DNA of 64,000 nucleotides from Liolophura sinensis (lineage: Eukaryota > Mollusca > Polyplacophora > Chitonida > Chitonidae). This document shows, in pieces, positions 28,301 through 37,300 of this stretch. Numbering within the stretch: the stretch's first letter is position 1; every line of letters begins with the position of its first letter. The stretch is taken from contig NC_088295.1 in assembly GCF_032854445.1 (NCBI RefSeq), forward strand, positions 11,333,385-11,397,384, written 5' to 3'. The notes beneath the pieces are model-generated. The model had not been told where the DNA came from. It saw nothing but the letters and a program-made list of their open reading frames with translations, and did not search any database. Both the position numbers and the translations under genes were made by a program.

Positions 28301-31300
28301 TGTACAAGATAATGATCTGCTTTCTATCCGAGACCCTCTATGTCTATCAAATATATACACTGTGGATGGTAGTGGGTTTCCCCCTGGCTCTGCCCTGTTT
28401 CCTCCCGCCATAAAGATGACCGCCGTTGTATAAGTGAAATATTCTTGAGTACAGCATAAAACACCAAATGAAATAAATAAATAAATCAAATATTTATAGA
28501 ACTCTTATTTTGGGGCTATAGAGATGTCTCATACATCTATACAGATATAGGCATGATATAATGGATTGGGGGAAGAGTAAGCAATATTGAACAGAGACAC
28601 GAAAATTACTGACATAGATATACAGAAAACCAGACACGAATGTCCATGCTTCTTCATCAGCTATGTGTCATGTGATGTGATTACGAGAAGCAAGAGTTGA
28701 GTGCAAACCTTCTGGAGTCATCCTTGATATTTCAGGGACTTCCACGTAGAAATCCTTACGGAATGGAGCATAGTATATACGATTGTGATCCACCACATTC
28801 AACTCCTGCAAGACACAAAGGCACACTTTTTTAAGTGGCTTCTTTATACTAAAACAAAGACAATCAAGAATCTGGTAATAGCTTAGTCACTTCCTTCACA
28901 TTTCCTATTAGAAAAAAAAGATGCCAGAAACTCATTCCAAAATGAACAATTAGATTTTACTTGCTATAAATGTAATTTATCAGTTCAAATTAGAAGAGTA
29001 TCAGACAAGAAATCTTGAGACACTGACCTTTTTCTTCTTGGCCATGTTTGCCATGGTCATATCCAAGTCTTCCTCCTCTTCTTCAGAGGAATACTACGAA
29101 GAAAATCAAATGTAACACAGATAGAAGAATACAAGGGTACAGAACAGCAAATATAACACTGATAGAAGAATACAAGGGTACAGAACAGCAAATATAACAC
29201 AGATAGAAGAATACATGGGTACAGAACAGCAAATATAACACTGATAGAAGAATACAAGGGTACAAAACAGCAAATATAACATAGATAGAAGAATACACGG
29301 GTACAGAACAGCAAATATAACACTGATAGAATACAAGGGTACAAAACAGCAAATGTAACACAGATAGAAGAATACAAGGGTACAAAACAGCAAATATAAC
29401 ACAGATAGAAGAATACACGGGTACAGAACAGCAAATATAACACTGATAGAAGAATACAAGGGTACAGAACAGCAAATATAACACAGATACAAGAATACAC
29501 AGGTACAGAACAATAAATGTAAGAAAGAAGAATACACTGGTGCAGAACAGCAAATATAACACAGATACAAGAATACACAGGCACAGAACAGCAAATATAA
29601 CATAGGTAGAAGAATACATGGGTACAGAACAACAAATATATCATAGACAGAAGAATACGTGAACAAAAAAAACAAGATAATAACAGAAGCATAGGTGCTG
29701 ACTGCACTGTACTGAATGCATCAAATATCTTGCTCTTAATTGCTGAATTTTGATTGTGCCTTTATTGCTGATGTCAACATATTCCTTTCATCACTACCAC
29801 AAGTAACCACTCACAGGGCATCATGCATATATTTTGGGAAAATTCTCATGCAAAAACACATACTTTTGGAAAAAAAGTATGCCAGGGAGATGTAATTTGA
29901 ACTGTATACTTTACAGTTACATTGGTACTTCACCTAGGTATCTTAAATATAAATTTGTACATGCATATTTAAGTTAATCAAACTCAAAATCATACACCTG
30001 CACTTCTCGTATGGATACCTTACACCCACTGTTCCATGTTACTCAACATCAACTCCCCCTTGTCTTTACTCAGGCTCACCCCCATTTGTGTTAATCATCT
30101 CCATCTGATCCATGCTACTCAACATCAACTCCCCCTTGTCTTTACTCAGGCTCACCTCCATTTGTGTTATTCACCTCCATCAGATCCATGTTACTCAATA
30201 TCAACTCCCCCGTGTGTTTACTCAGGCTCACCCCCATTTGTGTTATTCACCTCCATCAGATCCATGTTACTCAACATCAACTCCCCCGTGTGTTTACTCA
30301 GGCTCACCCCCATTTGTGTTAATCATCTCCATCAGATCCATGTTACTCAACATCAACTCCCCCTTGTCTTTACTCAGGCTCACCTCCATTTGTGTTATTC
30401 ACCTCCATCAGATCCATGTTACTCAACATCAACTCCCCCTTGTCTTTACTCAGGCTCACCTCCATTTGTGTTATTCACCTCCATCAGATCCATGTTACTC
30501 AACATCAACTCCCCCATGTGTTTACTCAGGCTCACCCCCATTTGTGTTAATCACCTCCATCAGATCCATGTTACTCAACATCAACTCCCCCTTGTCTTTA
30601 CTCAGGCTCACCTCCATTTGTGTTAATCACCTCCATCAGATCCATGTTACTCAACATCAACTCCCCCTTGTCTTTACTCAGGCTCACCTCCATTTGTGTT
30701 AATCATCTCCATCAGATCCATGTTACTCAACATCAACTCCCCCTTGTCTTTACTCACGCCCACCTCTGTCTGTGTTACTCATCTCCATTAGATCCATGTT
30801 ACTCAACATTAACTCCCCCCTTGTCTTTACTCAGGCTCACCTCCATTTGTGTTATTCATCTCCATCAGATCCATGTTACTCAACATCAACTCCCCCGTGT
30901 GTTTACTCACGCTCACCTCCATTTGTGTTAATCATCTCCATCAGATCCATGTTACTCAACATCAACTCCCCCGTGTGTTTACTCAGGCTCACCTCCATCT
31001 GTGTTAATCATCTCCATCAGATCCATGTTACTCAACATCAACTCCCCCGTGTGTTTACTCAGGCTCACCTCCATCTGTGTTAATCACCTCCATCCGATCC
31101 ATGTTACTCAACATCAACTCCCCCTTGTCTTTACTCAGGCTCACCCCCATTTGTGTTAATCATCTCCATCAGATCCATGTTACTCAACATCAACTCCCCC
31201 TTGTCTTTACTCAGGCTCACCTCCATTTGTGTTATTCACCTCCATCAGATCCATGTTAATCAACATCAACTCCCCCTTGTCTTTACTCAGGCTCACCTCC

Positions 31301-34300: not shown

Positions 34301-37300
34301 ATGTTACTCAACATCAACTCCCCCGTGTGTTTACTCAGGCTCACCTCCATCTGTGTTAATCACCTCCATCAGATCCATGTTACTCAACATCAACTCCCCC
34401 TTGTCTTTACTCAGGCTCACCTCCATTTGTGTTAATCATCTCCATCAGATCCATGTTACTCAACATCAACTCCCCCTTGTCTTTACTCAGGCTCACCTCC
34501 ATTTGTGTTATTCACCTCCATCAGATCCATGTTACTCAACATCAACTCCCCCTTGTCTTTACTCAGGCTCACCTCCATTTGTGTTATTCACCTCCATCAG
34601 ATCCATGTTACTCAACATCAACTCCCCCTTGTCTTTACTCAGGCTCACCTCCATTTGTGTTATTCACCTCCATCAGATCCATGTTACTCAACATCAACTC
34701 CCCCGTGTGTTTACTCAGGCTCACCCCCATTTGTGTTAATCATCTCCATCAGATCCATGTTACTCAACATCAACTCCCCCTTGTCTTTACTTAGGCTCAC
34801 CACCATTTGTGTTAATCACCTCCATCAGATCCATGTCACTCAACATCAACTCCCCCTTGTCTTTACTCAGGCTCACCTCCATTTGTGTTAATCACCTCCA
34901 TCAGATCCATGTTACTCAACATCAACTCCCCCTTGTCTTTACTCAGGCTCACCTCCATTTGTGTTAATCATCTCCATCAGATCCATGTTACTCAACATCA
35001 ACTCCCCCTTGTCTTTACTCACGTCCACCTCTGTCTGTGTTACTCATCTCCATTAGATCCATGTTACTCAACATTAACTCCCCCCCTTGTCTTTACTCAG
35101 GCTCACCTCCATTTGTGTTATTCATCTCCATCAGATCCATGTTACTCAACATCAACTCCCCCGTGTGTTTACTCAGGCTCACCCCCATTTGTGTTAATCA
35201 TCTCCATCAGATCCATGTTACTCAACATCAACTCCCCCGTGTGTTTACTCAGGCTCACCTCCATTTGTGTTAATCATCTCCATCAGATCCATGTTACTCA
35301 ACATCAACTCCCCAGTGTGTTTACTCAGGCTCACCCCCATTTGTGTTAATCATCTCCATCAGATCCATGTTACTCAACATCAACTCCCCCTTGTCTTTAC
35401 TCACGTCCACCTCTGTCTGTGTTACTCATCTCCATCAAATCCATGTTACTCAACATCAACTCCCCCTTGTCTTTACTCAGGCTCACCCCCATTTGTGTTA
35501 ATCATCTCCATCAAATCCATGTTACTCAACATCAACTCCCCCTTGTCTTTACTCACGTCCACCTCTGTCTGTGTTACTCATCTCCATTAGATCCATGTTA
35601 CTCAACATCAACTCCCCCGTGTGTTTACTCAGGCTCACCCCCATTTGTGTTAATCATCTCCATCAGATCCATGTTACTCAACATCAACTCCCCCTTGTCT
35701 TTACTCACGTCCACCTCTGTCTGTGTTACTCACCTCCATCAGATCCATGTTACTCAACATCAACTCCCCCTTGTCTTTACTCAGGCCCACCTCTGTCTGT
35801 GTTACTCACCTCCATCAGATCCATGTTACTCAACATCAACTCCCCCTTGTCTTTACTCACGTCCACCTCTGTCTGTGTTACTCACCTCCATCAGATCCAT
35901 GTTACTCAACATCAACTCCCCCTTGTCTTTACTCACGTCCACCTCTGTCTGTGTTACTCACCTCCATCAGATCCATGTTACTCAACATCAACTCCCCCTT
36001 GTCTTTACTCAGGCCCACCTCTGTCTGTGTTACTCACCTCCATCAGATCCATGTTACTCAACATCAACTCCCCCTTGTCTTTACTCAGGCTCACCTCCAT
36101 TTGTGTTAATCATCTCCATCAGATCCATGTTACTCAACATCAACTCCCCCTTGTCTTTACTCAGGCTCACCCCCATTTGTGTTAATCATCTCCATCTGAT
36201 CCATGTTACTCAACATCAACTCTCCCATGTGTTTACTCAAGCTCACCTCCATCTGTGTTACTCACTTCTTTCAGATCCATTTTACTCAGGATCAACTGCC
36301 CCTTGTCTTTACTCAGGCCCACCTCTGTCTGTGCTACTCACCTCCATCAGATCCATGTTACTTAACATTAACTCCCCCTTGCGTTTACTCGGATCCACCT
36401 TCTTTTTGGCCACAGCTGTGATGATTGTGAATTTACCGGACTGAGTGGATGTTACTGTGTTCGCACTGGCATCCTGAAAACATGGAATTAACAGCTTATA
36501 AAACAATAGAGTACTTTTTCACATTTATACTTCGCATTTATAAAGTAAATTTATAAAGCGCATTTGTACAGCGCATTATAAAGCACATTTATAAAATACA
36601 TTTATAAAGCAATTTGTACAGCACATTTATACAGCACTCTTATACATCACACTGTATTGAACCACACTGATGACACAAGTCAGAGAATTCATGAGTCTAT
36701 TAGTAACTCTAAAACACTGAAATGATTATTTACTATTGTAAGGCTTAGAACAAAACCATAAACCATTATAGAAACCATATTTAGAAAAAAGAATGAACTT
36801 ATTGCACATACAGTTTCCATTTTAACTGCTGCAGATTTCTTTACTTCCTTTTCTCCCTTGGGTTTTGGATCTTCTATTACTGTCTGCAAAATGGAACAGG
36901 AACTTAAAAACAGCGGTGTAGATGTTAGTATTTATTTATTCACTTTATTGTTTAATGCAATGCTCAAGAGTTTTTGACTCCTACCATTAGTTTAATGGCT
37001 GGCGGAAACCAGAGTGCCCGAAGGAAAACACCATGATCAATCTTCGGCATGTTACTGACAAACTTTCCACCACAGAAGGGGGTCACAGACGTCAAAATGT
37101 TTCAATCAGAAATATTGAGTTTTTTCAAGGTCGTTTTGAGTTTTTTTTCAGATCTAACTGCCATGTAAAAATGTCATACTGAGTTTTGTTAATATCTAAC
37201 TACCCTATACAATTAATAAGACAAAGTAATATTAATTTCTATGTTTTTGAGATTCTGAAATATCAAACTGAATATATCCCATAAATCCACTCTAACCGGT

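Follow-up and report, generated by a model that had tools for sequence, protein, structure and literature searches.

Tandem repeats across three donor junctions of the chiton splicing helicase gene DDX46 resemble the mirage minisatellites of amphioxus

Tandem repeats across exon–intron boundaries have been named mirages in amphioxus (PMC3087553), where, to judge from the available portions of the papers cited here, they occur in Adh3 and in the globin genes BflGb6 and BflGb9 (PMC3087553), with TnC and PGBD5 added in a further report (PMC3902484). The mechanism that generates them was called unclear and their length unstable (PMC3087553), and the new and earlier amphioxus data together suggest that mirages leave regular splicing undisturbed (PMC3087553, PMC3902484). 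In human, a 31-bp variable number of tandem repeats (VNTR) at exon 13–intron 13 of CBS has been discussed for homocysteine levels (PMC1395315), and segmental duplications carry internal tandem repeats at exon–intron boundaries, on average four units of 30 bp (PMC2812944). Here we describe three boundary-crossing repeats, arrays A and B and repeat C, in the DDX46 gene of the chiton Liolophura sinensis, in a window that comprises the whole 64-kb stretch of DNA analysed (contig NC_088295.1, positions 11,333,385 to 11,397,384; all positions below are those of the window). DDX46 is a splicing helicase, a relative of yeast PRP5.

At exons 6, 12 and 13 of DDX46 the repeat unit crosses the authentic exon–intron boundary, as in a mirage, and we consider it very probable that these are three mirage-type minisatellites that arose by duplication of a donor junction, grew as minisatellites and are tolerated through the precedence of the first donor. 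The gene lies on the minus strand and comprises 21 coding exons by our count, with 20 introns between them. The protein closest to it is P0002, a predicted DDX46 isoform X2 from Liolophura sinensis, which the coding segments of the window match exactly from residue 6 on, with the exception of residue 441, where an intron interrupts the codon; residues 3–1032 of P0002 can be aligned with a DDX46 chain from solved structures (6y50_p), which we take to be human. The translation of exon 6 equals P0002 residues 244–287 letter for letter, and the protein resumes in phase 0 at 29093, the start of exon 7. The P0002 gene model uses the authentic junctions of exons 6, 12 and 13, each of which is the terminal unit of its array, and the copies sit within single introns of that model. 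A gain of introns by AGGT-containing tandem duplication was considered and provisionally set aside.

Homology between exons and introns was sought throughout DDX46 by aligning the last 100 nt of each exon (20 introns) or the last 120 nt (19 introns), or the whole exon if shorter, with its own intron, using 100 shuffles per test in the 100-nt scan and 40 in the 120-nt scan. On the donor side, 3 of the 20 introns were strongly positive: the ends of exons 6, 12 and 13 reached local alignment scores of 83, 72 and 76, the maxima in 100 shuffles each being 32, 23 and 22. Donor-side scores for the remaining 17 introns stayed below their shuffle maxima in the 100-nt scan, and on the acceptor side none of the 20 introns gave convincing homology. 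Borderline acceptor scores in the 100-nt scan were those of exon 10 (25, maximum 24), exon 3 (23, maximum 22) and exon 13 (21, maximum 21); in the 120-nt scan exons 10 and 3 again exceeded the shuffles (25 versus 22 and 23 versus 20). We regard these two as chance matches, being short and away from the junction (exon positions 57–71 and 80–93), and likewise the donor match of exon 20, which scored 23 versus 22 at -119 to -106 in the 120-nt scan and 18 versus 25 in the 100-nt scan. Every donor in the 100-nt scan reads GT; acceptor starts were 1–2 bases off for exons 2, 3, 9, 11 and 16 (in the 120-nt scan also 10, 12 and 15), and exon 1 was taken in the 100-nt scan as 44200–44093, which includes guessed 5' untranslated sequence.

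The largest repeat, array A, was reported by Tandem Repeats Finder at 30033–36390 with a period of 76, 83.5 copies and 92% matches, and cutting it by unit gave 84 unit starts, the first being that of the authentic exon end and the last that of a partial copy ending at 30033. Every unit combines 49 nt or more from the 3' end of exon 6 with the donor region and the beginning of the intron. Unit cutting and the match to P0002 thus confirm what the original prediction had said of the gene, the exon, the content of the unit, the start of the array and its copy number, and the self-alignment with exon 6 that it had proposed as a check agrees. As the alignment of exon 6 with its intron covers exon positions -59 to -1, the figure of 49 nt is a lower bound, and a fixed composition of 49 + 27 nt was rejected, 59 + 17 fitting equally well. 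The prediction had also found the unit boundaries to fit slippage between a GAGTAAA in the exon and another in the intron, an argument that proves circular and was rejected as a demonstrated mechanism: the intronic GAGTAAA sits in exon-homologous sequence, with homology on to -59, and, being part of the copied exon, it cannot count as the substrate of the first slippage. GAGTAAA marks one of several phases in which the unit can be cut.

The 82 full intronic units share with the authentic unit a mean identity of 0.910 at the 49 exon-derived positions and of 0.771 at the 27 intron-derived positions, and neighbouring units differ on average at 5.4 positions. An exact run of 944 bp (34628–33685) recurs at a lag of 1600 bp, or 21 units (span 32085..34628, minus strand), and a second exact run, of 798 bp starting at 35313, recurs at a lag of 1676 bp; blocks of 21–22 units have been duplicated within the array, recently as judged by identity. 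The intronic units nearest the exon (36314 and 36238) are by eye among the most diverged, as expected if array ends escape homogenisation. Such concerted evolution with diverged end units was seen in array A only.

The repeats at exons 13 and 12 had been overlooked in the original prediction. Array B, after exon 13, has a unit of 85 bp (57 nt of exon, the donor and about 28 nt of intron) and a higher-order period of 243 bp, that is, three units. Repeat C, after exon 12, is absent from the Tandem Repeats Finder list; its aligned exon portion spans -53 to -3, and its outer limits, like its donor-like sites CAG/GTAACG, GAG/GTAGTG and CCG/GTAACA (a slash marks the exon–intron boundary), were set by eye. 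Compared with one another, the units of A, B and C scored 21, 17 and 16, below the 25, 23 and 22 reached at most in 100 shuffles. Given this lack of mutual resemblance beyond shuffles, a common origin was rejected in favour of three separate origins, and on their sequences the three duplication events look independent.

As to the direction of copying, patterns for the ends of exons 6, 12 and 13 matched 56, 60 and 49 of 60 homologues (the first 60 of 120 listed, P0002 among them, a miss meaning a pattern mismatch only), and, to the eye, molluscs, other spiralians and vertebrates show constant spacing across these ends. Because the protein across the exon ends is conserved with constant spacing, copying started from the exon, which was not itself lengthened. 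We infer that in each case a tandem duplication into the intron took in a segment across the exon end, made up of roughly 50–70 nt of exon with the 5' splice site and some 17–45 nt of intron; the exon copy would then have been held fixed by coding constraint, and unequal exchange and block duplication may have homogenised the intronic copies as they multiplied to the present 2, 9 and 83. The gene would tolerate such arrays if the first donor transcribed, which is intact, defines the exon in vivo, and skipping of the authentic donor would lead into an in-frame stop. In-frame stops are found past the authentic donors at 36311 (exon 6), 24954 (exon 13) and 25759 (exon 12).

The state of the copied donors bears on this tolerance. 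The authentic donor of exon 6 has a U1 duplex energy of -12.4 kcal/mol, the lowest of 18 donor strings scored (next best -11.8; 17 in register, exon 11 off by one base, exons 1 and 14 left out). In array A, G occupies position +1 in 28 of the 82 units and A in the remaining 54; at +5 there are 20 units with G, 45 with T and 17 with A. Six units retain both G's, five of them reading GAG/GTGAGTAA, and the other 76 lack one or both. The predicted presence of a 5' splice site in every unit therefore holds more by origin than for the present state, with A at +1 in most units. A second site, GTGAGC, lies about 20 nt into the intron in 65 of the 82 units. In array B, six of the nine intronic copies keep a full-strength donor, GTG/GTGAGTAG, identical to the authentic one.

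Several observations weigh against our account. Donor-like sites, taken as those at or below -7.5 kcal/mol in simple U1 duplex energy (the mean of the scored donors, the out-of-register exon 11 row included), number 78 in A, 15 in B and 12 in an 11.4-kb control of 13 intron stretches; repeat C and two other intronic arrays have no site at or below this value. Because such sites are abundant in A and B, undisturbed splicing is not self-evident. In addition, heterozygosity in array A is 0.039 in the exon-derived part and 0.131 in the intron-derived part, and values above 0.1 occur at 4 of 49 exon-derived versus 9 of 27 intron-derived sites (Fisher p = 0.009, a test that overstates independence, given that units share ancestry). 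The lower variability of the exon-derived part is not predicted by plain neutrality; it might stem from selection on donor sites or from gene conversion templated by the exon.

Selection against decoys might have removed the copied donors of array A, leaving inert repeats. Positions +1 and +5 matter most for pairing with U1, and both rank among the three most variable of the 76 sites, with both G's surviving in so few units. We nevertheless think this explanation unlikely, since pairing at the second site improved (GAG/GTGGGCCT at -8.9, GAG/GTGAGCCT at -9.7), the site is present in most units as GTGAGC, array B retains its donors, and the counts rest on few independent mutations. Judged from the sequences, decay of decoy donors does not appear general, and that the first donor wins would be the simplest view. 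Still less probable, in our estimation, is the converse proposal that the copied donors act, the arrays serving as banks of alternative 5' splice sites whose use would yield frameshifted DDX46 mRNA degraded by nonsense-mediated decay and so tune the level of the helicase. The abundance in A and B of donor-like sites no weaker than the mean of the scored donors, the authentic-strength donors of array B and the early in-frame stop that each array supplies are in keeping with this proposal, and, by its title, one earlier study (Turri et al. 1995) concerns a minisatellite with multiple donors in use. It is opposed by the loss of +1G and/or +5G from 76 of the 82 copies of array A, and donor-rich arrays are expected from copying alone.

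The least probable alternative, and one that we hold to be very improbable, is an assembly artefact affecting the copy number or array A itself: long exact internal repeats are hard to assemble, and the HiFi reads used to assemble the congener L. japonica average 8,347 bp, little above the 6.3-kb array. Yet adjacent units of array A differ at several positions, and B and C show the same anatomy in less than 1 kb. A different question, that of origin, is raised by the possibility that the genome is simply rich in minisatellites, a few of which happen to cross exon ends; this is compatible with our explanation, and we give it some, although limited, credence. At least ten other minisatellite-type arrays in the window speak for it; against it, random placement of eight founder units in the gene gave three or more donor overlaps with p = 0.003, a post hoc value for which the eight-founder list and uniform placement were chosen by the analyst. 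It is also doubtful, although conceivable, that chitons recurrently and specifically amplify 5' splice junctions in a manner perhaps tied to transcription or splicing, with stalled forks or R-loops near strong donors as examples of what might perhaps trigger it. If this were true, mirages would be a general feature of chiton genes, as has been suggested for cephalochordates, and donor-side arrays would survive through a transcription order that favours the upstream donor. We thus retain junction duplication, minisatellite growth and tolerance through the first donor as the most probable explanation; the coordinates of the features are collected in Table 1.

Table 1. Exons, donor and repeats of DDX46 in window coordinates.
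Feature	Position	Strand	Remarks
DDX46 coding exon 6, source of array A	36342..36473	-	Phase-0 3' end ...CTGATGGAG; exact P0002 match
Authentic GT donor of exon 6	36340..36341	-	GAG/GTGAGTAG; junction CTGATGGAG/GTGAGTAG
DDX46 exon 7	29028..29093	-	3' neighbour exon of the 7,248-bp intron carrying array A
DDX46 exon 12 (DEAD-box exon), source of repeat C	25838..25920	-	
DDX46 exon 13, source of array B	24982..25146	-	Exon part -57..-1, encoding 19 residues
Array A	30033..36390	-	Authentic junction unit (36390-36315) + 82 full + 1 partial 76-bp intronic copies
Array B	24240..25038	-	Authentic unit + 9 intronic copies, last partial, two of 73 bp
Repeat C	25560..25908	-	Authentic junction + 2 diverged intronic copies, spacing about 115 bp

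Other repeats were noted in the window. Within DDX46, an array of 36 units of 50 bp with 96% matches (18055–19850) starts about 35 nt into the intron after exon 19 and has no homology to that exon beyond shuffles, and a 41-bp array (29100–29658) lies a few nucleotides upstream of exon 7, which does not match the intron containing it beyond shuffles. Outside DDX46, adjacent arrays of 33 bp and 75 bp at 9320–10400 share a GAACATT...GCAGCGGTCAAC-like motif. A large open coding exon of a RhoGAP gene, whose mollusc relatives are named ARHGAP24-like or 22/24/25, occupies 61253–62842; no donor was identified in this single open exon. A 67-bp array upstream of it (63699–64000) is cut by the window edge.

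These arrays would extend mirage minisatellites to a mollusc, with one large array and three independent cases in a single gene, and would offer natural tests of how the splicing machinery stays with the correct donor when dozens of near-copies lie downstream, and of a possible donor bias in junction duplication. That the host gene itself encodes a splicing helicase makes RNA tests pointed, although this may be coincidence. In the literature titles and abstracts searched no mollusc junction array was named, which is no proof of absence, and in the available portions of two chiton genome papers the word 'tandem' is absent from one and occurs once in the other, for something other than introns.

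The class itself is not new, contrary to the original prediction, which had known of no such described class: given that boundary-spanning repeats are already known in amphioxus and human, the DDX46 arrays belong to a described class. Besides the amphioxus mirages and the human CBS VNTR, Turri et al. 1995 reportedly describe, by their title, a minisatellite that provides multiple splice donors to a transcript, presumably of the gene 6-16/IFI6, with a repeat unit said to be short; it resembles the chiton arrays as a tandem unit with a splice donor and differs, again by title, in that its donors are used. The CBS VNTR, to which Lievers 2001 is reportedly devoted as well, is like the chiton arrays in its position at a donor-side exon–intron boundary and unlike them in its shorter unit. 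The human repeats of segmental duplications (PMC2812944) share minisatellite expansion at exon–intron boundaries and have been linked to new introns, whereas in the chiton one intron was lengthened. Closest are the amphioxus mirages, which, in the portions available, have units of 10 to about 160 bp, many copies with splice signals, and concerted evolution with cluster boundaries outside homogenisation (reported for BflGb6). In amphioxus, acceptor-side and donor-side cases occur, with 6 and 3 repeats in two BflGb6 haplotypes, and RT-PCR (PCR after reverse transcription) and somatic instability are reported; the chiton arrays, known from the sequence of one haplotype, are confined to the donor side and reach 83 copies, with three in one gene of a mollusc. 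It is the host, the size and the threefold occurrence in one gene that are notable in chiton DDX46.
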